Positions 15,643 through 33,420 of a DNA stretch of 64,000 nucleotides are shown one piece after another (the stretch's first letter is position 1; the number at the start of each line of letters is the position of its first letter). Origin of the DNA: an uncultured Alphaproteobacteria bacterium (GTDB lineage Bacteria > Pseudomonadota > Alphaproteobacteria > Rhodobacterales > Rhodobacteraceae); assembly GCA_902596605.1 (NCBI GenBank), contig CACJUU010000001.1:1-64000 (forward strand), written 5' to 3'. The translations under genes were made by a program, and so were the position numbers. The notes beneath the pieces are model-generated. The model ran no database searches. It was not told the origin of the DNA and saw only the letters and a program-made list of their open reading frames with translations.

Positions 15643-15651
15643 AGGGAAAAG

Positions 15652-16041
15652 GTGTTACCTAAATTTAAACATAAGCAGCTAAAATTTAACGAGGGAGCTC
15701 TAATTTATTCTATCGGAGATGAGGCAAAAAACGTTTATCTAATTCATAGTGGGCATATCAGTATAAGATCCAAACACGGACTCGAGCTTGGAAACCTTGG
15801 ACCTGGAGAAATTTTTGGTGAAGTAGGCAGAGTAATCAATTCTCCTCGAACAGTAACGGCAAAGGCAAAAACTGACTGCGTTGTATATGAAATTGACTGG
15901 GCTAATCTACAAAAAAAGTTAGATGAGGCCGACCCTGTCTTAGTTGCTATTACAAGAGGTCTATCATTGAGAATTGGGGATGCAAATGAGCTTGCAGAAA
16001 AGTTATGGCTTGAATTAAGTGTGTATAAATCACTCGAGTAA
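15652..16041 (+). CDS. Stand-alone cyclic-nucleotide-binding domain protein
   Basis: This 129-residue protein consists almost entirely of one CNB beta-roll. The phosphate-binding cassette is GPGEIFGEVGRVINSPRTVTAKA (about residues 58-80), where the Glu of FGE and the Arg of PRTV are the usual cAMP ribose and phosphate contacts. There is no DNA-binding helix-turn-helix and no effector domain, only a C-terminal helix. The start is GTG at 15652, with GAGGG upstream. It lies 9 bp after the cyclase gene, so the two probably form a synthesis-and-sensing pair. The output partner is unknown. Confidence 0.82.
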   Translation: MLPKFKHKQLKFNEGALIYSIGDEAKNVYLIHSGHISIRSKHGLELGNLGPGEIFGEVGRVINSPRTVTAKAKTDCVVYEIDWANLQKKLDEADPVLVAITRGLSLRIGDANELAEKLWLELSVYKSLE

Positions 16042-16949: not shown

Positions 16950-18200
16950 ATGAAATATTCTGGAATTAAAGTCTTATGGGAAGGATTACGAGGTAACATG
17001 GGTTGGAAACCCTTGTGGAGGAACCCCGATCCGAAAAAGAGTTATGACATAATAATAGTTGGTGGAGGTGGGCACGGCTTAGCAACGGCCTATTATCTTG
17101 CAGAGAAATTTAAAATTACTAATATCGCAGTTCTTGAAAAAGGCTGGCTTGGATCTGGAAACATAGGTAGGAATACGACGATCATACGATCTAACTACCT
17201 ATTACCCCAAAACCAACCTTTTTATGAGTTCTCTCTGAAACTTTGGGAAAATTTAGAGCAAGAATTAAATTATAATTCAATGGTAAGTCAGAGGGGTGTT
17301 TTGAACATCTTTCATTCAGATAGTCAGAGAGACGCTTTCGTAAGGCGCGGCAATGCGATGCTTATGTCAGGGGCGGATGCCTCACTATTAGGAGTAAACG
17401 GTCTAAAAAAAATGGTTCCTTTTCTTGATTTTCAGAATTCTAGGTTTCCCATTAAGGGTGGTTTATGGCAACCAAGAGGAGGAACTGTAAGGCATGATGC
17501 AGTAGTGTGGGGTTATGCTAAAGAAGCGGACTCACGTGGCGTTGATATAATAGAAAATTGTGAGGCAACTAATTTCTTGGTCAAAAATGGACGCTGCTAT
17601 GGAGTTGAAACTACAAAAGGAGTAATTAAAAGTAAAAAGGTTGGAGTCTGCGTTGCTGGATCATCAAGTCAAGTGATGGGCAAAATTGGAATAAACCTAC
17701 CTATAGAAAGTCATGTTTTGCAAGCTTTTGTATCGGAAGGCTTGAAACCTGTAATTCCAGGAGTAATTACTTTTGGAGCTGGTCATTTTTATGTGAGCCA
17801 ATCTAACAAGGGCGGATTAGTTTTTGGAGGTGACATTGATGGCTATAACTCCTACGCACAGAGAGGAAACCTACCGGTAATAGAAGATGTGTGTGAAGGA
17901 GGAGTGGCTCTGATGCCAATGATCGGACGCGCTAGGCTTCTTAGAACTTGGGGGGGGATAATGGATATGTCAATGGATGGATCCCCAATTATTGATAAAA
18001 CAAACATAACAAACTTATATTTTAACGGTGGCTGGTGCTATGGAGGCTTCAAAGCAACTCCAGCAAGTGGCTTTTGCTATGCACATCTTTTGGCAACTGG
18101 AACATCACATCATAATGCCAAAGATTTTTTGTTCAATAGGTTTGAAAAAGGTATGTTGATAGACGAAAAAGGCCAAGGCAACCAACCCAACTTGCATTAA
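16950..18200 (+). CDS. soxB: Sarcosine oxidase beta subunit (heterotetrameric type)
   Basis: This subunit of the four-subunit sarcosine oxidase carries the amine-oxidising flavin. The protein is 416 residues with an FAD dinucleotide-binding motif, IIIVGGGGHGLATAYYLA (35-52), and then GSGNIGRNTTIIRSNYL. His182 in GGTVRHDAV is the likely covalent FMN attachment site (His173 in characterised enzymes). The C-terminal GGWCYGGFKATPASG also fits the family. Known members oxidatively demethylate sarcosine to glycine, passing formaldehyde to tetrahydrofolate. It is the first gene of the long plus-strand C1 operon. The divergent 177-bp upstream gap shows no riboswitch that I can recognise. Confidence 0.92.
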   Translation: MKYSGIKVLWEGLRGNMGWKPLWRNPDPKKSYDIIIVGGGGHGLATAYYLAEKFKITNIAVLEKGWLGSGNIGRNTTIIRSNYLLPQNQPFYEFSLKLWENLEQELNYNSMVSQRGVLNIFHSDSQRDAFVRRGNAMLMSGADASLLGVNGLKKMVPFLDFQNSRFPIKGGLWQPRGGTVRHDAVVWGYAKEADSRGVDIIENCEATNFLVKNGRCYGVETTKGVIKSKKVGVCVAGSSSQVMGKIGINLPIESHVLQAFVSEGLKPVIPGVITFGAGHFYVSQSNKGGLVFGGDIDGYNSYAQRGNLPVIEDVCEGGVALMPMIGRARLLRTWGGIMDMSMDGSPIIDKTNITNLYFNGGWCYGGFKATPASGFCYAHLLATGTSHHNAKDFLFNRFEKGMLIDEKGQGNQPNLH

Positions 18201-18214
18201 AATGAGGATAAAAA

Positions 18215-18499
18215 ATGCTTATTGACCATCCATTACTTGGCCTTAGGGATTCATCCGAATTCATTTATATGGGTGATGCAAAGTTACTTAATAGACCAAA
18301 TTGGAAGAGTAAAAACTCTAATACTAAATTTATAGATTATGGCTATTTACGAAAAAATCCTGCGGGGGAACACAAAGAGCTCTGGTACCATGAGCAAGGT
18401 GATAGATCTTGGCTGGTGGTAACAAGAAATACCGTAACCCATGAAATTTTAAAAGTTGAGCTAGCTCGATATCTTAAAAGAAAAGCAAATGCGAAATAG
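18215..18499 (+). CDS. soxD: Sarcosine oxidase delta subunit, zinc ligands missing
   Basis: This is the small structural subunit of the heterotetramer, 94 residues. The family core is clear: RDSSEFIYMGDA, then DYGYLRKNPAGEHKELWYHEQGDRSWLVVTRNTVTHEI. Characterised SoxD binds zinc through a CPxCG pair near residues 6-9 plus His59 and Cys63. Here residues 5-9 are HPLLG, His59 is kept (WYH), and position 63 is Asp. There is no cysteine anywhere in the protein, so the zinc site is lost. A good AGGA site precedes ATG 18215. It overlaps soxA by 11 bp. Confidence 0.9.
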   Translation: MLIDHPLLGLRDSSEFIYMGDAKLLNRPNWKSKNSNTKFIDYGYLRKNPAGEHKELWYHEQGDRSWLVVTRNTVTHEILKVELARYLKRKANAK

Positions 18500-21425
18500 T
18501 TCACATCCAATAACAAATAAACAAAAACTATCTTTTACTTTTAATGGGAAAAAATATTTCGGCTATAAAGGTGATACGTTAGCTTCTGCACTTATTGCCA
18601 ACAACATTAAACTTGTTGGAAGATCTTTCAAATATCATCGTCCAAGAGGCATTTTTAGCGCCGGATCTGAAGAACCAAATGCATTGGTAGAGCTTGGAGA
18701 TGGCCCATATAAAGAACCAAATACAAAAGCTACTAACGTGGAGTTATTTGATGGTCTTAAAGGCTCGAGCCAAAATTTTTTAGGGTCAATTAATTTTGAC
18801 CTTATGGCAATAAATGATTTTCTAAAAAATTTCATAGGTGCAGGTTTCTATTACAAGACGTTTATGTGGCCTAGAAGGTTTTGGGAAAAATTATACGAAC
18901 CGATTATTAGAAGAGCCGCAGGTTTAGGGAAATTATCACTAAAGGCGGATCCGTCACATTATGACAAGGGGTATCTCCATTGTGACTTTCTAATAATTGG
19001 ATCTGGTATCTCAGGGTTAATGTCTGCCCTTCTCTTGGCAGAAACAGGGAGTGAAGTTTTAATTGTCGAGGAAGATTTTATTTTGGGTGGAAGACTCAAT
19101 TCAGAAAGGTTAGTTATTAATGGCAAACAATCTTCGATTTGGATTGGTCAAGCAGTAAAAAAATTAAAAAGTTTAAAAAATGTTCGAATCTTAAATAGAA
19201 CCACGGTCTTTGCTGCTTTTGATCATGGTATATTTGCAGCCATCGAGAAAAAAACTGATCATAAATTAGAAAAAAGTTCCAAACCAAGACAGATAAATTG
19301 GAAGATATATACCAAACACTGCATCTTAGCGTCTGGAGCTATTGAGCGCTCTATTGCATTTCCTCAAAACGATAGACCCGGTATAATGCTTGCAGGATCG
19401 GTAAGAACTTATGCGAATAGGTTTGGTGCCCACTACGGTCAAAAAATTGCAATCTACACAAATAATGATGATGGTTGGAAGACAGCTGACGATCTAAAAA
19501 ATATGGGGCTCGAAATTAAGGCAATAATCGACACTCGCAAAGAGATTGAAGCGCCGTCTTCAAGCATTTCATCTTACCTGGGACAAAAAATTACAAAGAC
19601 ATATGGAAGAAAAGGTATTAAAGCAATTAAGTTAAGTTCAGGATCAAAATTGGATGTTGACTGTCTTGCAGTATCAGGCGGGTGGAGTTCCAACATTCAT
19701 TTGACATGCCACAAGCGAGGTAAACCCGTTTGGGATAATATTTACAAGAACTTTCTATCAGTTGATAATGCACAAAAAGATGACATAATTCCTGTTGGGG
19801 CCGCGAGAGGAATATTTGAAATCCAAAATATCATTTCAGATACAAATAGAGTTATTTTATCTTTGATTAAAAAAATTGGTTTGAGCATGCCTAACCGCAT
19901 TACAATAACTAGCTCGAAAGAGCAGTATGGCTGCTCACTTGATCTTGTTAGCAGCTCAAATCCCTCTAACTCCTTTATAGATTTGCAAAACGATGTTACC
20001 CAAAAAGATATAGAGTTAAGTTTCAGAGAGGGTTTTAAAAGTGTGGAACATTTAAAGCGATACTCCACGTTGGGTATGGCAACCGATCAGGGAAAAACAT
20101 CTAATATCCTTGGGTTAGCGTCTATGGCTAAATTGAAGGGAACGAATATTTCTGAAGTAGGCACTACTATTTTTAGACCACCTTATGTACCTGTAGCTAT
20201 ATCGGCTTTTGCTGGACGTTCTAGGGGAAAGGATTTTAGACCAACAAGGTTAACCCCATCACATAATGTAGCCTCCAAACGAAATGCAGTTTTTGTAGAG
20301 ACAGGTAACTGGCTACGAGCTCAATGGTTTCCAGAAAAGGGCGAAACATTTTGGCGACAAAGTGTCGATAGAGAGGTTCTACAGACAAGAAATTCTGTTG
20401 GAATTTGCGATGTAACTACACTTGGAAAAATCGATATTCAAGGGAAAGACTGCTCAGAGTTTTTAAATTTTGTATACACGAATGCCTTCGCCAAGTTACC
20501 TATCAATAGAGTACGTTACGGATTAATGTTAAGAGAAGATGGCGTTGCATATGATGATGGAACTACTGCAAGGTTAGGTAAAAATCATTTTATAATGACA
20601 ACTACGACCGCTAATGCCGCTTTAGTTTTTAGAAGTTTAGAATTTGTTCGACAGTGCCTCCTTCCAAATCTAGATGTTCATTTAATTTCTACTACAGACT
20701 CTTGGGCCCAGTATTCGGTCGCTGGACCAAACTCTCGCAGATTATTGCAAAAGATTGTCGATAAACCAAAAGATATAACTAATGAAAATTTTCCATTCAT
20801 GGCTTGTCGTGAACTCACCATCTGTGGCGGTTTTATGGCAAGGCTTTTTCGAATTTCCTTCTCCGGGGAATTAGCTTATGAAATTGCCGTTCCTACACAA
20901 TATGGAAATGCTTTATTTGACGCCCTTCTTTCAGCCGGTAAAGAGTTCAACGCCATTCCCTATGGAACTGAAGCATTAGGAGTTATGCGAATAGAAAAAG
21001 GTCATACTGCTGGTAATGAAATAAATGGTCAGACAACGGCACAGAACCTTGGCTTATCAAGGATGATATCAAAAAAAGCGGACAGCATAGGAAATATGCT
21101 ATCCGAGAGAGAAGGCTTCAACAGATCTGATATCGCAACATTGTCAGGCTTTAAGCCTGTTCAACGCAACCAAAAGCTTGAAGCTGGATCACACCTAATT
21201 TCAGCTGGGAAAAAGCCCACAATGGAAAATGATGAGGGTTGGCTATCTTCGGTAGCCTTCTCTCCAACACTTGGTCACTACATAGCTTTAGGGTTTATTA
21301 AGCGCGGTGAAACAAGAATTGGTGAAAAGGTGTGTGCCGTTAATCTACTTCAAAATAAAACAACAGAAGTAGAGATTGTTTCGCCTCACTTTATCGATCC
21401 AGAAGGGGTTAAACAACGTGGCTAA
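18489..21425 (+). CDS. soxA: Sarcosine oxidase alpha subunit
   Basis: This 978-residue subunit has three regions. The N-terminal 2Fe-2S-ferredoxin-like fold without iron ligands includes LVGRSFKYHRPRGIFSAGSEEPNA. Next come dinucleotide-binding domains (FLIIGSGISGLMSALLLAE near residue 160, and later the GAIERSIAFPQNDRPGIMLAG segment). The C-terminal half, from about residue 600, is a GcvT/aminomethyltransferase fold that binds tetrahydrofolate (RNSVGICDVTTLGKIDIQG, FSGELAYEIAVP, and ALGVMRIEKGH). The enzyme would thus deliver methylene-THF, the substrate of the downstream folD. The start overlaps soxD and the stop overlaps soxG. Confidence 0.93.
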   Translation: MRNSSHPITNKQKLSFTFNGKKYFGYKGDTLASALIANNIKLVGRSFKYHRPRGIFSAGSEEPNALVELGDGPYKEPNTKATNVELFDGLKGSSQNFLGSINFDLMAINDFLKNFIGAGFYYKTFMWPRRFWEKLYEPIIRRAAGLGKLSLKADPSHYDKGYLHCDFLIIGSGISGLMSALLLAETGSEVLIVEEDFILGGRLNSERLVINGKQSSIWIGQAVKKLKSLKNVRILNRTTVFAAFDHGIFAAIEKKTDHKLEKSSKPRQINWKIYTKHCILASGAIERSIAFPQNDRPGIMLAGSVRTYANRFGAHYGQKIAIYTNNDDGWKTADDLKNMGLEIKAIIDTRKEIEAPSSSISSYLGQKITKTYGRKGIKAIKLSSGSKLDVDCLAVSGGWSSNIHLTCHKRGKPVWDNIYKNFLSVDNAQKDDIIPVGAARGIFEIQNIISDTNRVILSLIKKIGLSMPNRITITSSKEQYGCSLDLVSSSNPSNSFIDLQNDVTQKDIELSFREGFKSVEHLKRYSTLGMATDQGKTSNILGLASMAKLKGTNISEVGTTIFRPPYVPVAISAFAGRSRGKDFRPTRLTPSHNVASKRNAVFVETGNWLRAQWFPEKGETFWRQSVDREVLQTRNSVGICDVTTLGKIDIQGKDCSEFLNFVYTNAFAKLPINRVRYGLMLREDGVAYDDGTTARLGKNHFIMTTTTANAALVFRSLEFVRQCLLPNLDVHLISTTDSWAQYSVAGPNSRRLLQKIVDKPKDITNENFPFMACRELTICGGFMARLFRISFSGELAYEIAVPTQYGNALFDALLSAGKEFNAIPYGTEALGVMRIEKGHTAGNEINGQTTAQNLGLSRMISKKADSIGNMLSEREGFNRSDIATLSGFKPVQRNQKLEAGSHLISAGKKPTMENDEGWLSSVAFSPTLGHYIALGFIKRGETRIGEKVCAVNLLQNKTTEVEIVSPHFIDPEGVKQRG

Positions 21426-21978
21426 ACTAGAGCTTAAAATAGAAAAGCCACTAAATGGCTATTCCAAGATCATAAATAAAATAAAAATTGCCGAGTATCA
21501 ATTCGATGATCTCATATCACTTGCAATTCCATTAAAAAGCGAGAGAAAATGTCAACTAAATTTCAAGAAATCCTTAGGGGAACCAATGCCAAACATTGAA
21601 AATTCAATCATCAATAGAAGTGGTATTTTAGGTTTTAGAATTGGTCTTGACTTACTTTTTATTTGTAATCCATCGCATTCGTCATTTGCAAAAAAAACTG
21701 TCCCGTTGTTGAAGCAAGCTTTTTACATAACTGACCAAACCGGAGGGTGGTGTGGGGTTAAAGTTGATGGGGATAGAGTCATTGAGATGTTAGAACGAAT
21801 TTGTCCTCTAAATTTATCTCAAAAAATTTTTGCTATTGGAGATGTTAAAAGAACTATTATGGATCACTTAAATGTGATTATATTTAGAGAAACAGAAAAA
21901 AAATTTATATTGTTCTCGCCTAGCTCTTCTTCTGGTTCCTTTCTTAAATCCATAGAGATATCTTCGAGAAATATTTAA
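21418..21978 (+). CDS. soxG: Sarcosine oxidase gamma subunit
   Basis: The gamma subunit (186 residues) completes the tetramer. SoxG is the least conserved subunit, and I assign it from position (directly after soxA, before fhs) and from the GcvT-like fragment TGGWCGVKVDGDRVIEMLERICPLNL, which is characteristic of SoxG. The frame is open further upstream, but the natural start is GTG at 21418, where GTGGCTAA overlaps the soxA stop by 8 bp. The C terminus (VIIFRETEKKFILFSPSSSSGSF) also fits the family. Confidence 0.82.
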   Translation: MAKLELKIEKPLNGYSKIINKIKIAEYQFDDLISLAIPLKSERKCQLNFKKSLGEPMPNIENSIINRSGILGFRIGLDLLFICNPSHSSFAKKTVPLLKQAFYITDQTGGWCGVKVDGDRVIEMLERICPLNLSQKIFAIGDVKRTIMDHLNVIIFRETEKKFILFSPSSSSGSFLKSIEISSRNI

Positions 21979-21994
21979 ATAATAGGGAGTTGAA

Positions 21995-23671
21995 ATGAAA
22001 GTCAAATCTGATATCGAAATCGCAAGAGAGGCAACAAAACTTCCCATAAAAGAGGTAGCAAAAAAATTAGGTATAGAAGAGGAAGAATTAATTCCCTTCG
22101 GGCATGATAAAGCAAAAGTATCAGTTCAATTCATTAGATCGGTAAAAAATAATCAAAACGGTAAGCTGATTTTAGTAACAGCGGTAAACCCAACACCTGC
22201 AGGTGAAGGTAAGACCACTACCACGGTAGGCCTAGGAGATGGACTTTGTGCTTTGGGGAAGAGAACAGCTATATGCATTCGCGAAGCATCTTTAGGACCT
22301 TGCTTTGGTATGAAAGGGGGAGCTGCTGGTGGAGGACTCGCACAAGTTGTACCTATGGAAGAAATGAATTTACATTTCACCGGAGACTTTCATGCAATTA
22401 CGAGCGCTCATAACTTATTAGCAGCAATGATAGATAACCATATATATTGGGGTAACGAGCAAAACATTGACCTCCGAAGAGTTGTTTGGCGACGGGTGAT
22501 GGATATGAATGATAGGGCTCTTAGAGACGTGGTCACAAGCCTGGGAGGTGTTGCTAATGGATATCCAAAGCAATCAGGATTTGATATAACAGTGGCTTCT
22601 GAAGTAATGGCAATTTTATGCTTAGCTAATGATCTTTCAGATCTAAGAAAAAGATTGGGTGAAATAATCGTTGCATATAGAAAAGATAGATCTCCAGTTT
22701 TTTGTAAAGATATAAAAGCAGATGGCGCAATGACAGTACTCTTGCAACAAGCTATGCAACCCAATATCGTTCAAACATTAGAGAATAATCCTGCTTTTGT
22801 CCATGGAGGACCTTTTGCTAATATTGCCCATGGTTGCAATTCTGTTATCGCCACAAAGACTGCTCTTAAGGTAGCTAACTATGTAGTTACCGAAGCGGGT
22901 TTTGGAGCCGACCTTGGCGCCGAAAAATTTGTTAATATAAAGTGTAGGAAAGCTGGGATAAAGCCCGACGCTGCTGTAATCGTTGCCACAGTTAGGTCTA
23001 TGAAAATGAACGGTGGAATAGTTTCAAAAAATGATCTGAGTGCCGAAAATATTCAAGCTGTGCAACAAGGTTGTGCAAACCTAGGAAGACATATTGAAAA
23101 TGTAAAATCATTCGGAATACCAGTCGTTGTTGCAATAAACCATTTTGTTAGCGATACAAATGCCGAAATTGAAGCGCTTAGACGGTATGTTGCTGATAAG
23201 GGTACTGAAGCTTTCGTCTGTAAGCATTGGGCAGAAGGTTCTACTGGAATCCTACCTCTTGCGAACAAAGTTGTTGAGATTGCAGAAAACAAAAGTAAAT
23301 TTGCGTATACATACAAAGACGATTTGCCTCTGATTGAAAAAATCGAAAGAGTTGCTAAAAAAATATATAGGGCTGATGAAGTTCTTGCAAACAAGACAAT
23401 TAGGGATCAACTACAGTTATGGGAAAATGATGGTTATGGTGATCTCCCTATATGTATGGCGAAGACGCAATATAGCTTTACTACAGACCCTAACAGAAGA
23501 GGTGCGCCAAACGGGCACGCAATACCAATAAGAGAAGTTAGACTGTCGGCAGGGGCTGGTTTCATTGTTGTTATTTGTGGAGAAATTATGACTATGCCTG
23601 GACTTCCCAAAGTTCCAAGCGCGGAGGCCATAATGCTCAATAAAAAAGGCGACGTTGAGGGCTTATTTTAA
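21995..23671 (+). CDS. fhs: Formate--tetrahydrofolate ligase
   Basis: Fhs interconverts formate plus ATP with 10-formyl-THF. Run toward formate it can conserve energy when methyl groups are oxidised. The 558-residue length is typical. The ATP-binding loop is [18 protein letters not shown] (residues 67-84), followed by [19 protein letters not shown] and [18 protein letters not shown] strong AGGGAG site precedes ATG 21995. Together with soxBDAG and folD it forms a methylene-THF to formate route. Confidence 0.97.
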
Positions 23672-23687
23672 AAAGTCGAGGAAAATA

Positions 23688-24581
23688 ATGAATGAAATTA
23701 TTGACGGAAAGCAGTTTTCGCAAACTCTACGCGCCAAAGTAAAAAATTATGTAGATATCATAAAAGAAAGACACGGGGTAACTCCAGGTTTAGCAGTAAT
23801 ACTTGTTGGGGAAGATCCTGCAAGCCAAGTATATGTGAGAAATAAAGGTAAGCAAACCCTAGAGGCAGGAATGAACTCCTATGAGTATAAGCTGGACGCA
23901 TCGACTTCTTCCGATGTATTGCTTGACCTTATAGATAAACTAAATAACGATGTGAATGTTCATGGGGTTCTATGTCAACTACCTTTACCCGACCACCTGA
24001 ATGAAAAAGAAGTGATAAATTCTATCGATCCAAAAAAAGATGTGGATGGATTTCACATATCAAATGTTGGTCTTCTAAATACGGGTCAAAAGTCAATGAT
24101 CCCCTGTACACCATTAGGGTGTTTATTGCTACTTAAAGACAGACTTGGAAACCTTTCGGGTAAAAATGCTGTAATCGTGGGTAGATCAAATATAGTTGGT
24201 AAGCCGATGGCAAATTTACTTTTACAGGAAAATTGTACTGTAACCATAGCTCACTCTCGAACAGAGAATATAAAAACTATATGTGCACAAGCTGATATTA
24301 TCGTAGCTGCAGTAGGGAGACCTGAGATGATTAAAAAAGAATGGGTAAAACCGGGGGCCACAGTCATAGATGTTGGAATAAACCGAGTAACAAAAAATAT
24401 TGATGGACACGAAAAAACGACTTTGGTGGGTGACGTTTGTTTTACTGATATGGCTGGTTTAGCGGCTGGAGTCACTCCTGTGCCAGGTGGAGTGGGACCA
24501 ATGACTATAGCCTGTCTTTTAGCAAATACCGTTACTGCATGTTATAGATCACAAGACCTGTCTGACCCAGAGTTTAATTGA
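23688..24581 (+). CDS. folD: Methylene-THF dehydrogenase/cyclohydrolase
   Basis: FolD oxidises 5,10-methylene-THF to methenyl-THF with NADP and hydrolyses it to 10-formyl-THF. The start is ATG 23688 with GAGG at good spacing, giving 297 residues. Family signatures include YVRNKGKQ (catalytic Lys region), [35 protein letters not shown] (NADP site) and [15 protein letters not shown]. It follows fhs by 16 bp in the C1 operon. Confidence 0.97.
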
Positions 24582-24657
24582 CGGTTATTTTTTGGAGTTT
24601 TTTTGTTGATAATTACTTTCGAGAAAAATTTATTGATTATTCGTATGAGCCCAACTT

Positions 24658-24912
24658 TTGAAAAACATAAAAACACACGATAGCTTTTTAAAGCTTGCCC
24701 TTCGAAAAAGTGTAATAAGAAGAGCTTTACGGATTGCTCTAATCGTTGGTTGTATCCTTGCCCTAATAAACCATGGCGACAGAATAATTTTTCAGGATAT
24801 GAAATCAGTCGATTGGTTTAAAATTCTTTTAACTTTCTGCGTGCCGTACTGTGTCTCTACTATTTCATCAGTTTTGGCAATCAAACAAGAAATTGAGATA
24901 AATGAGTCCTAA
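24658..24912 (+). CDS. NrtS-like small membrane protein
   Basis: This 84-residue protein has two membrane spans (about residues 24-40 and 54-74). It includes ALRIALIVGCILALINHGDRI and WFKILLTFCVPYCVSTISS, a pattern shared with NrtS, a small family proposed to transport nitrate/nitrite. The only start in frame is TTG 24658; the earlier ATG at 24645 is in another frame that soon stops. No nitrate or nitrite reductase gene is nearby, so its role in a methylated-amine operon is unclear. Confidence 0.7.
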   Translation: MKNIKTHDSFLKLALRKSVIRRALRIALIVGCILALINHGDRIIFQDMKSVDWFKILLTFCVPYCVSTISSVLAIKQEIEINES

Positions 24913-24954
24913 AAAAAAAAGTTTCCTTTATAATTATTTCTTGTAGAGGTTTTG

Positions 24955-25794
24955 ATGAAAAAAAAGATTTTGCTTACAGGCGCAAGAGGTAGATTGGGTT
25001 CTTATCTTAGAGAGCCAATTTCAAACGTTTGCAGTACTCTTATTTCGACTGACATAAAAGAAAATATTGGAAAACTCAATGAAAATGAAAAATATGTCTC
25101 AGCTGATTTATCAAATTTTGATCAAATATGTGGCCTAACAAAAGACGTTTCGCTTATCTGCCATTTTGGAGCTTTGGTAGACGAAGTGCCATTTAAGGAT
25201 ATGCTAGGTGCTAATTTCATTGGCTCCTATAACATTTGGGAAGCAGCTCGTCAAAATAAGTGTAGAAGGGTAGTTTACGCAAGCTCTGCGCATGCAGTTG
25301 GCATGTATAAAAGAACTAAAACATTAAAGCCAAAGACTGCACATCGCGCTGATGGTTTTTATGGGCTATCAAAGTGTTTTACTGAAAATTTGGCCCGTAT
25401 GTATTACGATAAATGCGGTATTGAAGCGGTATGCTTGCGAATTGCTACATGTTCACCAGTAACAACGCAAAGAAGCTTAACGAGTTGGCTCTCCTATGAT
25501 GACTTGGTTCAATTGGTTATTAGAGCAATTGATACTTCACACACCGGTTATTCAGTTATTTATGGAGTGTCAGACAACGATCGTTCGAATTTGAGCAACA
25601 TAGACGCAGGGCATATTGGTTTCAAACCCAAAGATAATGCTGAGATTTACGCAAATAAAATCTTTGCAGATGACTTAACAGAAGAATTGGCAGACGAAGG
25701 GAACAAATTGCATGGTGGTCCTTTTGCATCCACTGATCTAGGAGTTAGCGCGATGGATAAAATGAAAATAGTTTATTCGCATAAGGGGGATTAA
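24955..25794 (+). CDS. NAD-dependent epimerase/dehydratase (uronate-dehydrogenase-like)
   Basis: This 279-residue extended-SDR protein has an N-terminal NAD site, LLTGARGRLGSYL. Next come CHFGALVDEVPF, the catalytic Ser region VYASSAHAVGMY and the YxxxK pair in FYGLSKCFTEN. The sequence style (SSAHAVG with DGFYGLSK) resembles uronate/hexuronate dehydrogenases, which oxidise cyclic sugar acids to lactones, but the substrate cannot be fixed from sequence. I chose ATG 24955 over TTG 24952 because TAGAGG lies at suitable distance. It is followed after 4 bp by the ThDP enzyme gene, so the two probably act together. Confidence 0.78.
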   Translation: MKKKILLTGARGRLGSYLREPISNVCSTLISTDIKENIGKLNENEKYVSADLSNFDQICGLTKDVSLICHFGALVDEVPFKDMLGANFIGSYNIWEAARQNKCRRVVYASSAHAVGMYKRTKTLKPKTAHRADGFYGLSKCFTENLARMYYDKCGIEAVCLRIATCSPVTTQRSLTSWLSYDDLVQLVIRAIDTSHTGYSVIYGVSDNDRSNLSNIDAGHIGFKPKDNAEIYANKIFADDLTEELADEGNKLHGGPFASTDLGVSAMDKMKIVYSHKGD

Positions 25795-25798
25795 CCAG

Positions 25799-27544
25799 AT
25801 GAAAGATAATAATATGCTTCGAGGAGGACAGCTTTTAGCTAAATCTTTCAAAGAGAAAGGAATAAACCATGTATTTACACTTGCAGGTGGGTTTTGCAAC
25901 CCAGCACTTGAGGGTTTCATGAATCATCAAATACCTGTGATAAATTGCCCACATGAACAAATTGCAGGTCATTTGGCAGACGGCCATACGAGACTTTCGA
26001 GAAAACCCTCTGTTTGTTTGGTTGGTCCGGAGGGGTTTGCGAATGCTATACCTGCCATGATGGAGGCGTGGGGGGAACGATCTCCTGTAATTTTTGTTAC
26101 AGGCTCATCCACTCTTAAAAAGCAAGGTGCTGGAGGATTTAAGGAAATAGATGACGTTTCTATCGCAAGACCGCTTACAAAATACAGTGCATCAATAACA
26201 GATGGAAATAGAATTCCTGAGTTCGTGGATAGAGCTTGGAGAATAGCGACAAGTGGTTATCCAGGCCCGGTCCATTTAAGTATGCCTGTAGACATAATGT
26301 TTTCGTCCTATGATGAAAGCGCCTCAGATATGGAGCGTCCATTTACTAGAAAAGAACCAAAGACCTATAAAGCATGGCCTCAGCCCTCAGCACTAAATGA
26401 GATAATGGGTATTATAAAGTCTTCAAAAAAACCCATAATTATCGGTGGACATGGGATATGGTGGTCAAAAAATGAAGATCTGTTAAAGCAAGTGGGTGAT
26501 GAAATCAAAATACCAATTTTTAATGTGCCATATCACCAAAAATTATTAAATGAAAATTGCAAGGCCTTTCTAGGGCTTGCCGATGTACATCAGTACCATC
26601 CTTCAAAGTTTGCGTTTAATGAGTCTGACTGCATTATAATGGTTGGAGGTCGCTTGGATAATCAAATGAATTTCGGTAATCCACCATTATTTCCAGCGAG
26701 TTCGAGGTTAATATGTGTCAACGGATCGCATGAAGAAATAGAATTTAATAGAGCGGCTGACCATTTGCTTTTGAGTGATCCTGGAGCTTTTTTTGAATGT
26801 CTACTAGAGTCACACAACGGAGATAAATTCTCTTTGGAAAAAGATTGGCTAGCTAAAAATATTGAGGAAAGAAAAAAATGGGTGACTGCGTCACTAAACA
26901 ATCTTGTTGAAACAACGAATTCTCCAGCATGGAGTGGCGGAAAAATTCACCCTTTAGAGCTTTCTCTTTCGGTACAAAAGTGTATGACAGACGAAGATAT
27001 TCTAGTTTTTGATGGAGGTAATACACACTTTTGGTCAGAAATTGCTGTTAGTATAATGGCCTCCAATGGATTAGCTCTTTCTCAAATAATGCACCCTGGT
27101 TCCTATTCAATGCTAGGCGTTGGAGTATCATTTGCACTGTCGGCAAAGCGGCTCAATAAAGAAAAGACGATTGTATTGATTTCTGGAGATGGTGCTTTCC
27201 TCAGCGGGGGTTTATCCATTGAGACAGCCTTTCAAGAAAACCTGCCGATTGTTATAATTATCGATAACAATGGTGGTTTAGATTGTATATCGCAACAACA
27301 GGAAAGATTGTTCAAAGATGGTTCTCATTTTGCAACAGATTTCAGAGATATACCATTTCATGGAATGTTTGAGGGAATGGGCGGTTATGGAGAGCTGGTA
27401 ACTCACAAAGATGATATTCAAGGAGCTGTAAGGCGAGCAATAGACAGCAGGAAACCTGCTTGTGTTAACGTAAAAACAAAAGGCGTTATCAGCCCAATTG
27501 TTGCGGCTACAAGCGATAAAAGAGATAAGGCTTCTATAGAATAA
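25799..27544 (+). CDS. Thiamine-diphosphate-dependent enzyme (acetolactate-synthase-like)
   Basis: This 581-residue protein has the three-domain ThDP decarboxylase/carboligase layout. The N-terminal Pyr domain carries the activating Glu in CPHEQIAGHLADGHTR (about residue 54). A central domain follows (GGHGIWWSKNEDLLK). The C-terminal PP domain has the ThDP/Mg motif SGDGAFLSGGLSIETAFQENLPIVIIIDNN. It is not a clear match to acetolactate synthase, oxalyl-CoA decarboxylase or sulfoacetaldehyde acetyltransferase. It sits between the uronate-dehydrogenase-like gene and a transthyretin-like gene. A lyase acting on a 2-oxo or 2-hydroxyacyl compound from methylated-compound degradation is possible but unproven. 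Confidence 0.82.
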   Translation: MKDNNMLRGGQLLAKSFKEKGINHVFTLAGGFCNPALEGFMNHQIPVINCPHEQIAGHLADGHTRLSRKPSVCLVGPEGFANAIPAMMEAWGERSPVIFVTGSSTLKKQGAGGFKEIDDVSIARPLTKYSASITDGNRIPEFVDRAWRIATSGYPGPVHLSMPVDIMFSSYDESASDMERPFTRKEPKTYKAWPQPSALNEIMGIIKSSKKPIIIGGHGIWWSKNEDLLKQVGDEIKIPIFNVPYHQKLLNENCKAFLGLADVHQYHPSKFAFNESDCIIMVGGRLDNQMNFGNPPLFPASSRLICVNGSHEEIEFNRAADHLLLSDPGAFFECLLESHNGDKFSLEKDWLAKNIEERKKWVTASLNNLVETTNSPAWSGGKIHPLELSLSVQKCMTDEDILVFDGGNTHFWSEIAVSIMASNGLALSQIMHPGSYSMLGVGVSFALSAKRLNKEKTIVLISGDGAFLSGGLSIETAFQENLPIVIIIDNNGGLDCISQQQERLFKDGSHFATDFRDIPFHGMFEGMGGYGELVTHKDDIQGAVRRAIDSRKPACVNVKTKGVISPIVAATSDKRDKASIE

Positions 27545-27546
27545 TA

Positions 27547-27888
27547 ATGCCCTTAATAAGTACACATGTATTAAATTCCGAAAACGGTACTCATATCGCT
27601 GGTCTAACAGTTACCCTTACACATATTGAGCCTGATGGAGCAAAAAAGAATATATTTTCTAATAAAACTGATGCGGGGGGACGCATTTCAGAGAGCTTTC
27701 ACTTTCCCCTTAAAAGCAATGAAATTTTTGAGATTGAATTTAAACTATCAGATATTCATATGAAGAAAAAAGGTATATACTGTAGAGATATAATTTTCAG
27801 GGTATCTTTCAATTCAGAAAATGAAAAATTCCATATTCCTATCATCGTATCTCAAAACGGCGCCTCTACTTGGTGGTCGGGAGAATAA
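27547..27888 (+). CDS. Transthyretin-like protein related to 5-hydroxyisourate hydrolase, atypical C terminus
   Basis: This 113-residue protein has the fold of 5-hydroxyisourate hydrolase (HIUase). His7 lies in LISTHVLN, Arg46 in DAGGRISE and His96 in KFHIPIIVS, corresponding to the three catalytic residues. HIUases end in the tetrapeptide YRGS, which forms part of the active site; here the end is STWWSGE. No other urate-degradation gene is nearby. The gene is 2 bp after the ThDP enzyme gene and overlaps nothing. It could be a lactonase-like hydrolase with altered specificity rather than a urate-pathway enzyme; this last step is inference. Confidence 0.78.
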   Translation: MPLISTHVLNSENGTHIAGLTVTLTHIEPDGAKKNIFSNKTDAGGRISESFHFPLKSNEIFEIEFKLSDIHMKKKGIYCRDIIFRVSFNSENEKFHIPIIVSQNGASTWWSGE

Positions 27889-27890
27889 AA

Positions 27891-29018
27891 ATGAATATTC
27901 AAAATAAGCTGAATTTCTCTAGAAGGATCAGAAGAACGCCTTTTACTACCTCTGTCGAAAAGCATGGAGTAACGGGATTTTCCGTTGTGAACCATACACT
28001 ACTTCCTAAGTCATTTAAAAACTCAATTGAAGATGATTATTTGCACCTACAAAAACATGCTCAAATTTGGGACGTTGGCTGTCAAAGGCAAGTTGAAATT
28101 AAAGGTAAAGACGCACTCAAACTTATTGAGTTAATGACGCCTAGATCAATCTCAGAACTTCAACCAGGAAAATGTCTTTACATTCCCTTGACCGATGAAA
28201 ATGGTGGTATAATCAATGATCCTATTCTTATCAAAATAAGTGCCGATCATTTCTATCTATCCGTTGCAGACTCAGATGTGTTATTGTGGGCTAGAGGGTT
28301 AGCTATTGGTTTTGGCTTAAACGTAAGAATAAGAGAACCTGACGTGTGGCCTTTGGCAGTACAAGGACCAAAAGCTGCCGATGTTTTGGCCAAAGTTTTT
28401 GGTGAGCGAATATATTCAATTAAAAAATTCAATTTCGACTATTTTTCACTTGATGGCTCTCCCCAACTAATAGCCAGAACCGGTTACTCTAGAATTGGTG
28501 GTTATGAAATATATCTGTCTCGACCAGAACTCGGTTCATCTCTATGGGAAACAATTTTAGGAGCTGGTAGATCAGAAAACATAAGGCCAGGATCTCCAAA
28601 CATAATAGATAGAGTTGAAGCAGGATTATTATCCTTTGGTAATGAAATGACCGTGGAGAACACACCTCTGGAATGTAACATGGATAAGTTCTTGGATATA
28701 AATAAAGAAGCAGATTATATTGGGAAAAAAGTTCTCCAACGACAGATCAGATATGGCATTAAAAGACGTATAAGAGGTGTTATTTATAATGGGCCTAAAC
28801 TTCCAACAATATCAAGACCTTTACAAGTTTTTGATATAAATAAAAGAACTATAGTCGGAAGCTTAACTTCAGGAGCATTCTCACCACATTTTAAGAAAAA
28901 TATTGGGGTTGGTATGATCAAATATGGGTACTGGGACAATAACAAAAAAATATTAGTTAATATTTCTGATCATGAGTTTAGAGAAGGATTAATCAAAGAC
29001 CTTCCTTTAATTCAATGA
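27891..29018 (+). CDS. GcvT-family THF methyltransferase, DmdA-like
   Basis: This 375-residue protein closely resembles dimethylsulfoniopropionate demethylase. It has SRRIRRTPFTTSVEKHGVTG near the N terminus, then VVNHTLLPKSF and DDYLHLQKHAQIWDVGCQRQ. The core has LTDENGGIINDP, YLSVADSDVLLWARG and LAVQGPKAADVLAKVFG, and further on ARTGYSRIGGYEIYL. DmdA moves a methyl group from DMSP to THF. DMSP is a sulfur analogue of glycine betaine, and this gene stands directly before two carnitine-to-betaine genes. A role as a betaine or dimethylglycine demethylase is therefore as plausible as true DMSP demethylation. I chose ATG 27891; the frame is open further upstream inside the previous gene. Confidence 0.78.
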   Translation: MNIQNKLNFSRRIRRTPFTTSVEKHGVTGFSVVNHTLLPKSFKNSIEDDYLHLQKHAQIWDVGCQRQVEIKGKDALKLIELMTPRSISELQPGKCLYIPLTDENGGIINDPILIKISADHFYLSVADSDVLLWARGLAIGFGLNVRIREPDVWPLAVQGPKAADVLAKVFGERIYSIKKFNFDYFSLDGSPQLIARTGYSRIGGYEIYLSRPELGSSLWETILGAGRSENIRPGSPNIIDRVEAGLLSFGNEMTVENTPLECNMDKFLDINKEADYIGKKVLQRQIRYGIKRRIRGVIYNGPKLPTISRPLQVFDINKRTIVGSLTSGAFSPHFKKNIGVGMIKYGYWDNNKKILVNISDHEFREGLIKDLPLIQ

Positions 29019-29025
29019 GGTAAGA

Positions 29026-29931
29026 ATGACTCTGGCTATTAATAAAAATGTATTTATTACCTGTGCTGTAACTGGTTCTGGAAGTTCACAAAATAAAAGT
29101 CGAGAAGTACCAAGATCGCCAAAGGAAATTGCAGATAGTGCGATTGAAGCCGCTAAAGCTGGAGCGGCTATTGTACATTGTCATGTAAGAGATCCCGATA
29201 CCGGTATACCAAGTCGTCGGCTTGATCTCTATGAAGAAGTAACAAAAAGGATTAGAGACTCCGAAACGGACGTCGTTTTGAACTTAACTACCGGAATGGG
29301 AGGCGATATTTACCTTGGTCTCGACGCTGAAAACCCACTGCCACTTAAAGAACCAGAAACAGATATGATAGGGGCGTCGGAAAGAATAAAGCATCTTGTT
29401 ACATGTAAGCCAGAAATCTGCACTTTAGATTGTGGCACAATGAATTTTGCTGAAGATAACTATGTAATGACCAACACGCCGGGAATGCTAATGGCGATGG
29501 CTTCAAAGATCACCAATTTAGGTATTCTTCCTGAGATTGAAGTTTTTGATACAGGACATCTGTGGCTGGCAAAAAAACTTGTGAACGATGGTCTGATAAA
29601 AGATCCCGTTCTTTTACAGCTTTGTATGGGTATACCCTGGGGCGCACCAAATGATATAAATACGTTTATGTCTTTAGTGAATAATATTCCAAAGGAATGG
29701 AGTTGGTCTGCATTTTCCATAGGGCAATTTCAGATCCCTTATGTTGCAATGGCCACTCTGGCAGGAGGAAATGTCAGAGTGGGGTTGGAAGATAATATTT
29801 GGTTGGAAAAAGGACGGTTAGCAAAGAATTACCAGTTGGTTGAAAAAGCTGCAAATGTCATCGAAAACTCCGGCAGTAAGGTCATGTCAGCAAAAGAAGT
29901 TCGTGACAAGCTTCGTTTGAAAAAACAATAA
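29026..29931 (+). CDS. BKACE-family beta-keto acid cleavage enzyme, probable dehydrocarnitine cleavage enzyme
   Basis: This 301-residue DUF849/BKACE protein has a TIM barrel that uses zinc to cleave a beta-keto acid with acetyl-CoA. The zinc ligands are in AAIVHCHVRDPDTG (His-x-His), and the catalytic Arg/Glu region is AGGNVRVGLEDNIW. In carnitine degradation, a BKACE turns 3-dehydrocarnitine plus acetyl-CoA into betainyl-CoA and acetoacetate. The adjacent gene (2 bp downstream) encodes carnitine dehydrogenase fused to a thioesterase, which makes that assignment strong. It lies 7 bp after the DmdA-like gene. Confidence 0.88.
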   Translation: MTLAINKNVFITCAVTGSGSSQNKSREVPRSPKEIADSAIEAAKAGAAIVHCHVRDPDTGIPSRRLDLYEEVTKRIRDSETDVVLNLTTGMGGDIYLGLDAENPLPLKEPETDMIGASERIKHLVTCKPEICTLDCGTMNFAEDNYVMTNTPGMLMAMASKITNLGILPEIEVFDTGHLWLAKKLVNDGLIKDPVLLQLCMGIPWGAPNDINTFMSLVNNIPKEWSWSAFSIGQFQIPYVAMATLAGGNVRVGLEDNIWLEKGRLAKNYQLVEKAANVIENSGSKVMSAKEVRDKLRLKKQ

Positions 29932-29933
29932 TT

Positions 29934-31400
29934 ATGAAAAATTTAAGCGTGACATGCATAGGAGCTGGCGTAATAGGGTCTGGTTGGGCTGCCCGCTTAT
30001 TAGTTAATGGAATAAATGTGAACGTTTTTGATAAGCGCCCAGAAAGCTACAATAGAACACGATTGTCCGTTGAAAGGGCTAAAAAATATTTCTCTCAATT
30101 AACAAAGGCCCCTTTAAGAGAAATGGGCAGTCTTACTTTTGAAAAATCTTTGGAAGATGCTCTAAAAACGTCCACTTTTATAATTGAAAGTGTTCCAGAA
30201 AATTTACAATTGAAGCATAAACTTTATAAAGAAATTGAGCAGATTTCAAATAATTCAATTATTTTGTCATCTACTTCAGGTTTCAAGCCCACTGACCTTC
30301 AAAAGTATATGGAAAATCCTCAGAGTTTGCTTGTTACACACCCTTTCAACCCAGTGTATCTGATGCCTTTGGTCGAGGTAGTTCCAGGTCAAGAAAGAGA
30401 TCAGAATATTGTTGATGACGTGCATCATTTATTGGAGTACATAGGCATGGTACCTATAATAATCAAAAAAGAAATCGATGCTTTTGTCGCTGACAGGATG
30501 CTAGAGGCAATGTGGCGTGAAGCATTGTGGCTTATAAAAGATGATATTTGCACTACTAAGGAGCTAGACGATATTATCACATCTAGCTTTGGAATACGAT
30601 TTGCTCAAATGGGAATGTTTGAAAGCTACCGTATTGCTGGAGGAGATAAAGGCATGCGTCATTTCCTTGATCAATTTGGTCCTGCACTAAAATGGCCTTG
30701 GTCCAGATTGACAAATGTACCAGAGTTTAATTCTGATTTAATAGATAAAATTTGTTCTCAATCAGATGCTCAATCAGATATGTATAGCATCTCCGAGTTA
30801 GAAGATATTAGGGACAACAACTTGGTTGAATTACAGAAAGCTCTTCGCAACAACCGTTGGGGATCTGGACGAACATTAGCGAGCTATGAAAAAGATCTAT
30901 TTGATGAACAATCAAAAGAGGCAGAAAAAGCTAGTGAAAAAATAAGTAGTGACCTGCTAATTACCTATACAAAAACGATACCTCCTGAATGGGCAGATTA
31001 TAATGGTCATATGACGGAATATCGCTATCTCAACTGTTTTGGCGATGCATCAGATGCTGTGATGCTCCATATAGGCTGTGATAAAGCCTATATCGAAGCT
31101 GGCAATTCCTACTTCACCGTTGAGACAAATATTAGACACCTAAACGAGCTTAAGGTAGGGCAAGAAGTATATATAGAAACTAAAGTTATAAAAGGAACTG
31201 AGAAAAAACTGCATGTTTTTCATATGTTAAGAAATAAAGAAAAAGAACTTTTTGCTACTGGTGAACATCTACTTCTACACGTTTCTTTAAAAACTAGAAA
31301 AACTTGTCCAGCAAGTAAACCTCTTATCGACAAATTGATAGAACTTCAAAAGCAACATCAAGAAACAAGTGTTCCATCAGAGCCGAAAATAATTGTTTAG
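29934..31400 (+). CDS. L-carnitine dehydrogenase fused to betainyl-CoA thioesterase
   Basis: This 488-residue fusion has an N-terminal 3-hydroxyacyl-CoA-dehydrogenase-like half (residues 1-320). Its NAD motif is GAGVIGSGWAARLL, its family core is STSGFKPTDLQ and THPFNPVYLMPLVEVV, and SFGIRFAQMGMFESYRIAGG is diagnostic of L-carnitine dehydrogenase. The C-terminal half (about 340-480) is a hot-dog thioesterase (PPEWADYNGHMTEYRYLN). In rhizobial and other proteobacterial fusions, the first half oxidises carnitine to dehydrocarnitine and the second releases glycine betaine from betainyl-CoA. It is the last gene of the block and ends next to a putative terminator. Confidence 0.9.
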   Translation: MKNLSVTCIGAGVIGSGWAARLLVNGINVNVFDKRPESYNRTRLSVERAKKYFSQLTKAPLREMGSLTFEKSLEDALKTSTFIIESVPENLQLKHKLYKEIEQISNNSIILSSTSGFKPTDLQKYMENPQSLLVTHPFNPVYLMPLVEVVPGQERDQNIVDDVHHLLEYIGMVPIIIKKEIDAFVADRMLEAMWREALWLIKDDICTTKELDDIITSSFGIRFAQMGMFESYRIAGGDKGMRHFLDQFGPALKWPWSRLTNVPEFNSDLIDKICSQSDAQSDMYSISELEDIRDNNLVELQKALRNNRWGSGRTLASYEKDLFDEQSKEAEKASEKISSDLLITYTKTIPPEWADYNGHMTEYRYLNCFGDASDAVMLHIGCDKAYIEAGNSYFTVETNIRHLNELKVGQEVYIETKVIKGTEKKLHVFHMLRNKEKELFATGEHLLLHVSLKTRKTCPASKPLIDKLIELQKQHQETSVPSEPKIIV

Positions 31401-31430
31401 TACTTTTATAGAATAGTTACTAAAATTTTT
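31396..31430. terminator. Putative bidirectional terminator between convergent operons
   Basis: TTTAGTA (31396-31402) and TACTAAA (31418-31424) form a perfect 7-bp stem around a 15-nt loop, with an extra CT/AG pairing inside. A run of five Ts (31426-31430) follows on the plus strand. It lies exactly between the ends of the carnitine operon and the convergent AhpD-like gene. The stem is AT-rich, so its strength is doubtful. Confidence 0.35.
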
Positions 31431-31998
31431 ATCGGCCCATAGCATAGAATTCCTCATTAGGTAACATTGAAAATGTGTTAGCTAGTCGATTACTCATAGC
31501 AAAGAAAGACGCAACTGAGGCTATTCTCCACGCGTCTTCAATATCAAAACCAAAACTTTCTAAAATTTTAAAATCAGAGTCATTTATGCCCTGCGACTCC
31601 TTTGCTACTTTCACGGCAAAATCAAGCATAGCACGTTGTCTCTCAGTTATTTTACTCTTTTTATAGTTTATAGCTATTTGGTCTGAAATATTTTTATCTT
31701 TGGATCTTATTCTCAAAACCGCTCCATGAGAAACTACACAATAAAGACAATCATTTTGTGCGGAGGTAGCCACAACAATCATCTCCAATTCGGCTTTTGT
31801 TATATTACATTCTGTTTCCATAATAGCATCGTAGTAGGTACAAAAACCCCTAAACTCATCAGGTTTTCTTGCCATTATCATAAAGACATTTGGTACAAAG
31901 CCTGTCTTTTCTTGCACAGATTGAATCTTCGTTTTTACGTCCTCTGGTAAATCCTCCAAATTTGGTATCGCCGATCTGCTGATAGGTCTATTGTCCAT
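31429..31998 (-). CDS. Carboxymuconolactone decarboxylase/AhpD-like peroxidase-related protein
   Basis: This 189-residue alpha-helical protein is of the peroxidase-related (AhpD-like) family. Its redox centre is in NDCLYCVVSHGAVLR (about residues 82-96), where the CxxC and nearby His correspond to the AhpD active site. N-terminal PDEFRGFCTYYDAIM and C-terminal DAWRIASVASFFAMSNRLAN are typical of the subfamily. The function is probably peroxide or alkylhydroperoxide reduction, but partners are unknown. Its start overlaps the hydratase stop by 11 bp, so it is the last gene of the urease-linked transcript. Confidence 0.82.
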   Translation of the reverse strand: MDNRPISRSAIPNLEDLPEDVKTKIQSVQEKTGFVPNVFMIMARKPDEFRGFCTYYDAIMETECNITKAELEMIVVATSAQNDCLYCVVSHGAVLRIRSKDKNISDQIAINYKKSKITERQRAMLDFAVKVAKESQGINDSDFKILESFGFDIEDAWRIASVASFFAMSNRLANTFSMLPNEEFYAMGR

Positions 31999-32803
31999 TA
32001 CTCTCTCCTTTTTTTACCCAAGGCGCAGGTTTCTTTTCAAAAAAAGCCTTAATACCCTGCTTACCTTCCTCCGACTCCCAACTGTTTGCAAGAATATTTG
32101 TTGTTATCTCGAAAAAATTTTCTGCTTTTTCTCCTGTAAGACTCTTCAATAGCTCTTTTGATTTTTTAATTGCGTCTGGTGAACATTTCAATATGTTGTC
32201 GATTTCCTGCAATTTTAATGACTCAATTTCTTTTTTATCCTTACAAACATAATGAATAAGACCCATCTTGTAGGCCAATTCAGCATCAAAAATTTTACCA
32301 CTGAAAAATACGTTACGACTGTAACTTTCCCCTAATTTCTTAATTACAAATGGTCCAATTGTCGCGGGGATCAATCCTAACCTTGTCTCTGTGAGGCCAA
32401 ACTTTGAAGCTTGAGAAACAATTACCGTATCAGATACAGAGATTAGGCCTAGGCCTCCACCAAATGCACTTCCAGAGACTATAGAAATCAATGGCATTGG
32501 AAGACTATTCATTGTTGCCAACATTTTTGCCAGTGCTCTAGCCTCAACCAATTTTCCCTCTTTTGATTTTTTTTCTTGGTCTTTCATCCAATTCAAATCT
32601 CCTCCAGCGCAAAATGTTTTCCCATTTGCTCTAAGAAAAACTACTCGAATACTGTCCTGCGATTTTAAATTCTGCCCAACTTCTTCTAACTCATCAATCA
32701 TTTTTCTACTCATAGCGTTATGCTTATCTGGTCTATTCAACGTAATTTCACACACGCCTTGAGCATTGATGTTTACTTCAATTTCTTTAAATTTATTTTT
32801 CAC
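31988..32803 (-). CDS. liuC: Methylglutaconyl-CoA hydratase-like enoyl-CoA hydratase
   Basis: This 271-residue crotonase-fold protein has oxyanion-hole segments in [14 protein letters not shown] and [32 protein letters not shown] marks the AUH/LiuC branch, which hydrates 3-methylglutaconyl-CoA to HMG-CoA in leucine degradation. The other leucine genes (ivd, mccA, mccB, HMG-CoA lyase) lie 5-11 kb away on the same strand, with the whole urease operon between. The start is GTG 32803, overlapping the ureG stop by 4 bp (GTGA), so it is translationally coupled to urease maturation. Confidence 0.8.
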
Positions 32804-33408: not shown

Positions 33409-33420
33409 TTCAAAGCTCCC

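Follow-up and report, generated by a model that had tools for sequence, protein, structure and literature searches.

A stretch of 64,000 nucleotides from an uncultured member of the Rhodobacteraceae (hereafter the window; positions 1 to 64,000 of contig CACJUU010000001.1, GenBank assembly GCA_902596605.1) encodes a protein resembling the dimethylsulfoniopropionate (DMSP) demethylase DmdA, and our main finding is that its gene belongs to a conserved module. The module consists of genes for this protein (DmdA', a predicted tetrahydrofolate (THF) methyltransferase), a thiamine pyrophosphate (TPP)-dependent enzyme, a member of the transthyretin/5-hydroxyisourate hydrolase (HIUase) family (TTR') and the FMN 2-hydroxyacid oxidase LldD. 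Its gene content, gene order and conservation, and the single clade formed by DmdA', are direct observations, and we are highly confident that its genes belong together as one linked unit. Judging from the sequences, we lean towards DmdA' being the methyltransferase of a catabolic route for what is likely a methylated onium acid, of the ammonium or sulfonium type. We infer every reaction of this route, the order of the reactions and the class of the substrate, the last with low confidence; DMSP and glycine betaine are each rated less likely than a third compound.

A gene module conserved around DmdA'

Orthologues of DmdA' with 50-54% identity occur in eight other genera in a family sample of 198 genomes. 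No open reading frame (ORF) in their neighbourhoods matched BKACE or carnitine dehydrogenase, the two genes that follow DmdA' in the window; the TPP enzyme, TTR' and DmdA' recur there, usually after a gene for an FMN 2-hydroxyacid oxidase (PF01070 in the one tested). The window TPP enzyme is 65-70% identical to seven relatives, and a scan of named genomes with an alignment of this enzyme yielded 80 loci, the best 80 of 535 relatives. Together with the eight loci of the family sample these made 88 loci, which fell into 26 clusters at 85% TPP-enzyme identity. By tblastn, with a gene scored as present if any locus of a cluster has it and with the clusters built around the TPP enzyme (the search query), the TPP enzyme was found in 26/26 clusters, TTR' in 26/26, DmdA' in 24/26 and LldD in 21/26. 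The two exceptions for DmdA' are a 4.3-kb contig that ends early (L072) and L083, which lacks the gene; tblastn also detected TTR' at L046 and L048 and DmdA' at L047, where the ORFs had gone uncalled. Further neighbours were SBP_bac_5 transporter genes (11/26 clusters), MttB (7/26), BKACE (4/26), carnitine dehydrogenase, which adjoins the module in three clusters (L050, L062 and L065), and choline dehydrogenase (2/26). soxA lies near the module in the window's own cluster alone (11 of 13 loci at the tblastn thresholds), L120 having a partial soxA-like match.

Record titles assign the loci to Rhodobacteraceae/Paracoccaceae, Pelagibacteraceae (SAR11), SAR116, Hyphomicrobiales, Comamonadaceae and unclassified Alphaproteobacteria, a varied set with many marine members, and the largest cluster, of 34 loci, includes four titled Pelagibacteraceae or Pelagibacterales (L117, L122, L125, L127). 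Searched for the TPP enzyme at E 1e-100, a plasmid collection gave nothing; in a phylum sample of 398 genomes, two encode it at E 1e-200, the window's own being one. Among open-licence papers, a scope that leaves absence in print unproven, none matched at least four of five terms for this gene combination. Upstream of the module, members of the 34-locus cluster also encode a second, more distant GcvT/DmdA-type protein with the motif GFTNELGWEIY (L117:6892-8115 and L111:7552-8781), whose scores against the DmdA model, 190.5 and 176.7 bits, fall short of the cut-off; at L111 a homocysteine S-methyltransferase-like gene, likewise below cut-off, lies beside it.

As controls we took 20 loci with typical dmdA and 20 loci picked arbitrarily, all from the same family and up to 20 kb long, and searched them with the same queries as 26 module representatives (486 kb of module DNA against 388 and 400 kb of control DNA). 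The DmdA queries match 24/26 modules and 20/20 typical loci alike and were not used as evidence. The TPP enzyme, TTR' and LldD were each found at 0/20 typical dmdA loci and 0/20 arbitrary loci, and SBP_bac_5 genes, present at 11/26 modules, were likewise found at 0/20 of either control. An AcuI-type gene showed the reverse distribution, with 15/20 typical dmdA loci, 0/26 modules and 0/20 arbitrary loci. Its query, taken from L167, is over the cut-off of the acrylyl-CoA reductase family (454 vs 297.25 bits) and under that of the AcuI equivalog (425 vs 440); an excerpt of PMC5395565 describes acuI as a genomic partner of dmdA in many Roseobacters.

Module partners and a candidate pathway

The TPP enzyme (25799-27544, plus strand; PF02776/PF00205/PF02775), a predicted lyase or decarboxylase at the core of the module, carries a His-Glu-Gln motif at the presumed catalytic Glu in 88/88 loci. 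Among its best 16 solved matches the closest relatives are 2-hydroxyacyl-CoA lyase, oxalyl-CoA decarboxylase and benzaldehyde lyase, yet all are distant (195-234 bits), and no NCBIfam cut-off is reached among the 25 best families listed.

TTR' (27547-27888, plus strand; PF00576) is the sole match of its kind in the window genome at E 0.01. Residues were counted by position over the 82 of 88 loci that gave an ORF (six gave none). The His, Arg and His of HIUase, which we take to be the catalytic positions, are kept in 80/82, 82/82 and 81/82 rows, and of the deviating rows at least L072 stems from an ORF in the wrong frame. TTR' shares these residues with the solved 5-hydroxyisourate hydrolases 2g2n and 2igl, but differs in an altered C-terminus: the Tyr of the HIUase tail (presumably of the signature YRGS; Tyr-Arg in the aligned PDB chain) has given way to Trp in 82/82 rows, the wrong-frame L072 included. 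The window protein also scores below the NCBIfam HIUase equivalog cut-off (52.9 vs 87.45 bits).

Three other assignments were tried and rejected. A urate or purine pathway for TTR' and the TPP enzyme is weak, the tail Tyr being lost and no urate-pathway set being recognised by eye in the loci viewed; for a histidine or imidazole substrate, HutF lies beside only 2/26 clusters; and for a guanidino substrate, arginase-family genes give no signal (3/26 modules vs 2/20 arbitrary loci). L042 carries a lactate/ureidoglycolate dehydrogenase-type gene that scores below cut-off.

In the route we propose, LldD would oxidise a 2-hydroxy acid, probably bearing the onium group, to a 2-oxo acid, which the TPP enzyme would then cleave or decarboxylate. 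TTR' would hydrolyse an amide- or ester-like bond, DmdA' would move one methyl group to THF to give 5-methyl-THF, and the upstream one-carbon (C1) genes, on the side of fhs and folD, would oxidise the THF-bound carbon. The set appears to be split in the window's genus, with the TPP enzyme, TTR' and DmdA' in the operon and an LldD relative on contig C4. This operon seems to have become linked with carnitine genes at one end and C1-oxidation genes at the other; the carnitine genes are probably an addition in a few lineages, and if they and the module both serve the use of quaternary amines, their linkage would be accounted for.

DmdA' as a sister clade of DmdA

The preliminary description of this DNA had named the product of 27891-29018 (plus strand) a DmdA-like protein, and rightly so: it is a full-length DmdA homologue, 41% identical to SAR11 DmdA (1.6e-103 to 3tfh), and scores 470.6 bits vs a cut-off of 410 for NF009133, the DMSP-demethylase equivalog. 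The AcuI-linked DmdA of L167 reaches 703.7 bits with this model. Placement on the DmdA phylogeny, which had been suggested as a check, was made in a maximum-likelihood tree of 64 rows with the SAR92 DmdAs left out. The module DmdA' proteins form one clade (27 rows, support 96/93), and its sister is a clade of SAR11 DmdA with typical Rhodobacteraceae DmdA, L167 included (22 rows, support 98/92); under midpoint rooting, DmdA' thus stands outside the SAR11/AcuI-linked clade.

Substitutions run through the whole module clade. Tyr32 of the typical proteins (23/23 rows) is Val (25/25 module rows), Thr/Ala39 (23/23) is Lys (25/25), Ile121 (23/23) is Leu (25/25) and Asp250 (23/23) is Glu (23/25), while N107, D108, E204, R239 and E241 are invariant in typical and module rows alike (23 + 25 rows). 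Measured against DmdA as known from SAR11 (3tfh/3tfi/3tfj) and Roseobacters, DmdA' is therefore alike in length, equivalog score and many invariant residues, but differs in its separate clade, these substitutions, the lack of an AcuI-type gene and the constant company of the TPP enzyme and TTR'. One Trp is named in an excerpt of PMC7487153 as key for DMSP specificity, and we took it as W197 of 3tfh by motif spacing. The position is Tyr in the window DmdA' and also in typical Rhodobacteraceae DmdAs, among them the AcuI-linked L167, so it decides nothing, and Trp/Tyr was dropped as a marker of DMSP specificity. A further DmdA-like group (L149-L153), with the motif GWSSELGY, is about 37-39% identical to the window protein; at L149, OsmC-family and enoyl-CoA hydratase-family genes follow the DmdA-like gene.

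DmdA' could instead be a second DMSP demethylase that differs in regulation or affinity, with its partners as passengers or in another sulfonium step. We consider this rather unlikely, although the equivalog cut-off is passed by all the proteins scanned, the clade is sister to that of SAR11 DmdA, and the residues presumed to line the folate site are retained. Gene company argues otherwise, with the AcuI-type gene at 15/20 typical dmdA loci and none of the modules, and with the TPP enzyme and TTR' at every module locus. So does the presence of other DmdA-type proteins: eight of the ten DmdA' genomes in the 198-genome sample list a second match, at 42-47% identity, and four of these matches fall in the typical clade. 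The window genome itself encodes, at C6:90531-91616, a second protein that exceeds the DmdA cut-off (499.2 bits). Clade position, the missing AcuI-type partner and this second DmdA together make it less likely that DmdA' is just another DMSP enzyme. To that extent the earlier suggestion that it may not be a DMSP enzyme is supported; the betaine-like substrate put forward in place of DMSP is plausible, as a possibility only.

Several points weigh against the onium-acid route that we prefer. All 11 scanned DmdA' proteins (the window's and ten relatives) pass NF009133, with 470.6-579.7 bits vs 410, a match to the DMSP model that is at odds with the gene company, and 10 of the 11 outscore the genome's other DmdA (499.2 bits). 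The DmdA tree is midpoint-rooted and holds 7 rows of unusual composition, SAR11 DmdA included, and the substituted positions may lie away from the substrate. An excerpt of PMC10746254 describes SAR92 proteins, peripheral to clades A-E and about 35-40% identical to proven DmdAs, that are themselves proven by restoring methanethiol production to a dmdA mutant; divergence of sequence by itself therefore cannot exclude DMSP. One point in favour of the route has limits of its own: genes of N-methyl metabolism (any of MttB, BetA, carnitine dehydrogenase, BKACE, Bhmt and SoxA) lie near 12/26 modules vs 2/20 typical loci (Fisher p 0.011) and 1/20 arbitrary loci (p 0.0026), which keeps a quaternary-amine-type substrate plausible; this enrichment is suggestive only, because the gene list was picked after viewing the loci and the controls come from one family while the module loci are of mixed taxa, and no single gene is significant (MttB at 6/26 module representatives vs 1/20, p 0.12).

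A last point against it is that LldD is absent beside the module in 5/26 clusters. These include all three clusters with carnitine dehydrogenase, compared with 2/23 others (Fisher p 0.0038, post hoc, the clusters not being independent by descent), and in the window's cluster and L062 (2/26 clusters) a short-chain dehydrogenase/reductase (SDR) gene occupies the place of LldD. In favour of the route, the window genome has an LldD relative elsewhere, at C4:107707-108768, which groups with the LldD of L041 and L090 (95/90, in a tree with just three outgroup rows). Since those two lineages sit next to the window branch in the DmdA' tree as well (97/75), the fourth module gene seems to have been kept but unlinked in this genome.

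As a special case of the onium-acid route, the substrate could be a sulfonium 2-hydroxy or 2-amino acid, such as 4-dimethylsulfonio-2-hydroxybutyrate or S-methylmethionine, or gonyol, with DmdA' retaining the sulfonium chemistry of DmdA and with LldD and the TPP enzyme taking the resulting hydroxy or oxo acid. The DmdA scaffold is retained, and LldD with the TPP enzyme would suit a path from a 2-hydroxy to a 2-oxo acid. Two genes downstream in L117, a SAR11-titled locus, lies a branched-chain aminotransferase gene (462 vs 396 bits), and in L044 a cystathionine gamma-synthase-like gene, below cut-off, adjoins DmdA'. We nevertheless think this narrower version improbable: N-methyl metabolism genes occur near 12/26 modules, and TTR' would be left without a clear role.

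The window operon and betaine demethylation

The source assembly is a metagenome-assembled genome (MAG) of 1.97 Mb in 48 contigs, 84% complete. The genes listed in the preliminary description lie where it had placed them on the plus strand, and soxB, soxA, fhs, folD, the DmdA-like gene and the carnitine dehydrogenase gene are over their cut-offs. Four genes with NCBIfam matches, soxB, soxD, soxA and soxG, stand in this order at 16950-21978; soxB (649.5 vs 529.45 bits) and soxA (1225.2 vs 1164) pass, soxD (79 vs 116.5) and soxG (38.5 vs 143.95) do not, and the profile scores leave a heterotetrameric sarcosine oxidase and an N-methylglutamate dehydrogenase unseparated. An excerpt of PMC3160333 gives putative N-methylglutamate dehydrogenase as the assignment of a SAR11 soxBDAG set. 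There follow fhs, formate-THF ligase (21995-23671; NF010030, 907.7 bits vs cut-off 652), and folD, methylene-THF dehydrogenase/cyclohydrolase (23655-24581; NF010785, 471.8 vs 396), whose true start is probably near 23688, the NF010785 match beginning at ORF residue 12.

What had been described as a single run is all on the plus strand but divided by a 370-bp gap after folD, in which a search found no terminator-like site, into soxBDAG-fhs-folD and a second half in which the SDR, TPP-enzyme and TTR' genes had been passed over. The gap holds an 84-aa ORF (24658-24912, plus strand; no Pfam family at 0.001); loci of the window's cluster carry an ORF of similar size in this position, and L062 has one following folD. 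The second half opens with the SDR/epimerase-type NAD enzyme (24952-25794; PF01370) and continues through the carnitine dehydrogenase with intergenic gaps of just 2-7 bp. DmdA' is followed, at gaps of 7 and 2 bp, by BKACE (29026-29931; PF05853, 317 bits) and by a carnitine 3-dehydrogenase fused to a thioesterase domain (29934-31400; PRK07531, 645.3 vs 592 bits; 4HBT_2 at 350-464), all on the plus strand. With the dehydrogenase over its equivalog cut-off and BKACE and the thioesterase domain adjacent, the gene content supports a predicted conversion of carnitine to glycine betaine, as had been suggested for these last two genes; an Arctic SAR11 genomic island likewise holds carnitine dehydrogenase and BKACE together, according to an excerpt of PMC12421898.

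From this arrangement the preliminary description proposed that DmdA' demethylates glycine betaine or dimethylglycine with THF as the methyl acceptor and so completes a route from carnitine to glycine, a reading that our results do not support and that we judge about as improbable as the sulfonium version above. It can point to the close spacing of the carnitine genes, to carnitine dehydrogenase beside the module in L050, L062 and L065, and to the lack of LldD in exactly those three clusters (a post hoc comparison affected by kinship). It does not carry over to the module at large: 23/26 clusters are without carnitine dehydrogenase, and elsewhere the partners are the TPP enzyme, the HIUase-like TTR' and LldD. 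We know of no role for these three in betaine-to-glycine chemistry, and they have no place in any such route known to us.

The window genome, moreover, has what appear to be the parts for taking betaine to glycine by another path: five proteins of the MttB family, a corrinoid protein that falls short of its family cut-off (179.7 vs 215.3 bits), and two tandem proteins of 816 and 813 aa whose best solved match is dimethylglycine dehydrogenase, with an MttB gene directly after them. With these and the second DmdA, betaine-to-glycine conversion need not use DmdA'. They resemble the corrinoid route of Ruegeria pomeroyi, for which an excerpt of PMC12478193 reports betaine degradation via corrinoid MtgBCD, shown by mutants, and CdhABC made for carnitine; carnitine there leads through betaine to THF-linked C1 oxidation, but the methyl group passes via cobalamin and not a DmdA-like protein. 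A separate Rieske-type betaine monooxygenase, a find held beforehand to speak against the carnitine-to-glycine route, did not turn up: four Rieske matches in the genome include no GbcA, an absence that is weak because the MAG is 84% complete. Two are oxygenase-sized, one scoring 118.3 bits where GbcA requires 670, the other without a family at 1e-30; the remaining two are a cyclase-Rieske fusion (contig C13, L137) and a ubiquinol-cytochrome c reductase (bc1)-type subunit. Among known relatives, SAR11_1265 and SAR11_1303 of HTCC1062 are DmdA/GcvT-family aminomethyltransferase paralogues, also from a pelagic alphaproteobacterium, for which other methyl groups have been proposed, the first lying beside metF and the second being postulated for betaine metabolism (excerpt of PMC3160333); we set them against DmdA' by description only.

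Around the operon, two genes lie just upstream of soxBDAG (14317-16041): the first encodes an alpha/beta hydrolase with a fused adenylate/guanylate cyclase domain, the second a small protein of the cyclic-nucleotide-binding type. Families of the Calvin cycle (RuBisCO small and large chain, class II aldolase, phosphoribulokinase and fructose-bisphosphatase) lie on the minus strand at 8952-13834, 3 kb away from the genes for C1 oxidation, the assembly measuring 2 Mb. Downstream, urease genes on the minus strand (31429-36219; ureG and the alpha subunit over cut-off, a ureE-like gene below) are convergent with the carnitine genes, with an enoyl-CoA hydratase-like gene and a CMD-family gene in between; L062 has a similar urease/carnitine arrangement plus an arginase-family gene.

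Implications for dmdA surveys

Counts of dmdA in ocean metagenomes serve as a marker of DMSP demethylation, for instance in an excerpt of PMC10746254, and they bear on the fate of marine organic sulfur. The genes of the conserved module make its substrate directly testable with purified enzymes. In a bolder and distinctly tentative extension of the onium-acid route, SAR11, SAR116, Rhodobacterales and others may share an undescribed pathway, built from a new demethylase subfamily (DmdA'), a new HIUase-derived hydrolase and a new TPP lyase, that would consume a marine onium hydroxy acid which is abundant yet has escaped recognition; its demethylase gene would now be counted as dmdA in ocean surveys. 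If DmdA' does not act on DMSP, model-based dmdA counts would be inflated, and planktonic bacteria would be using a further methylated compound.

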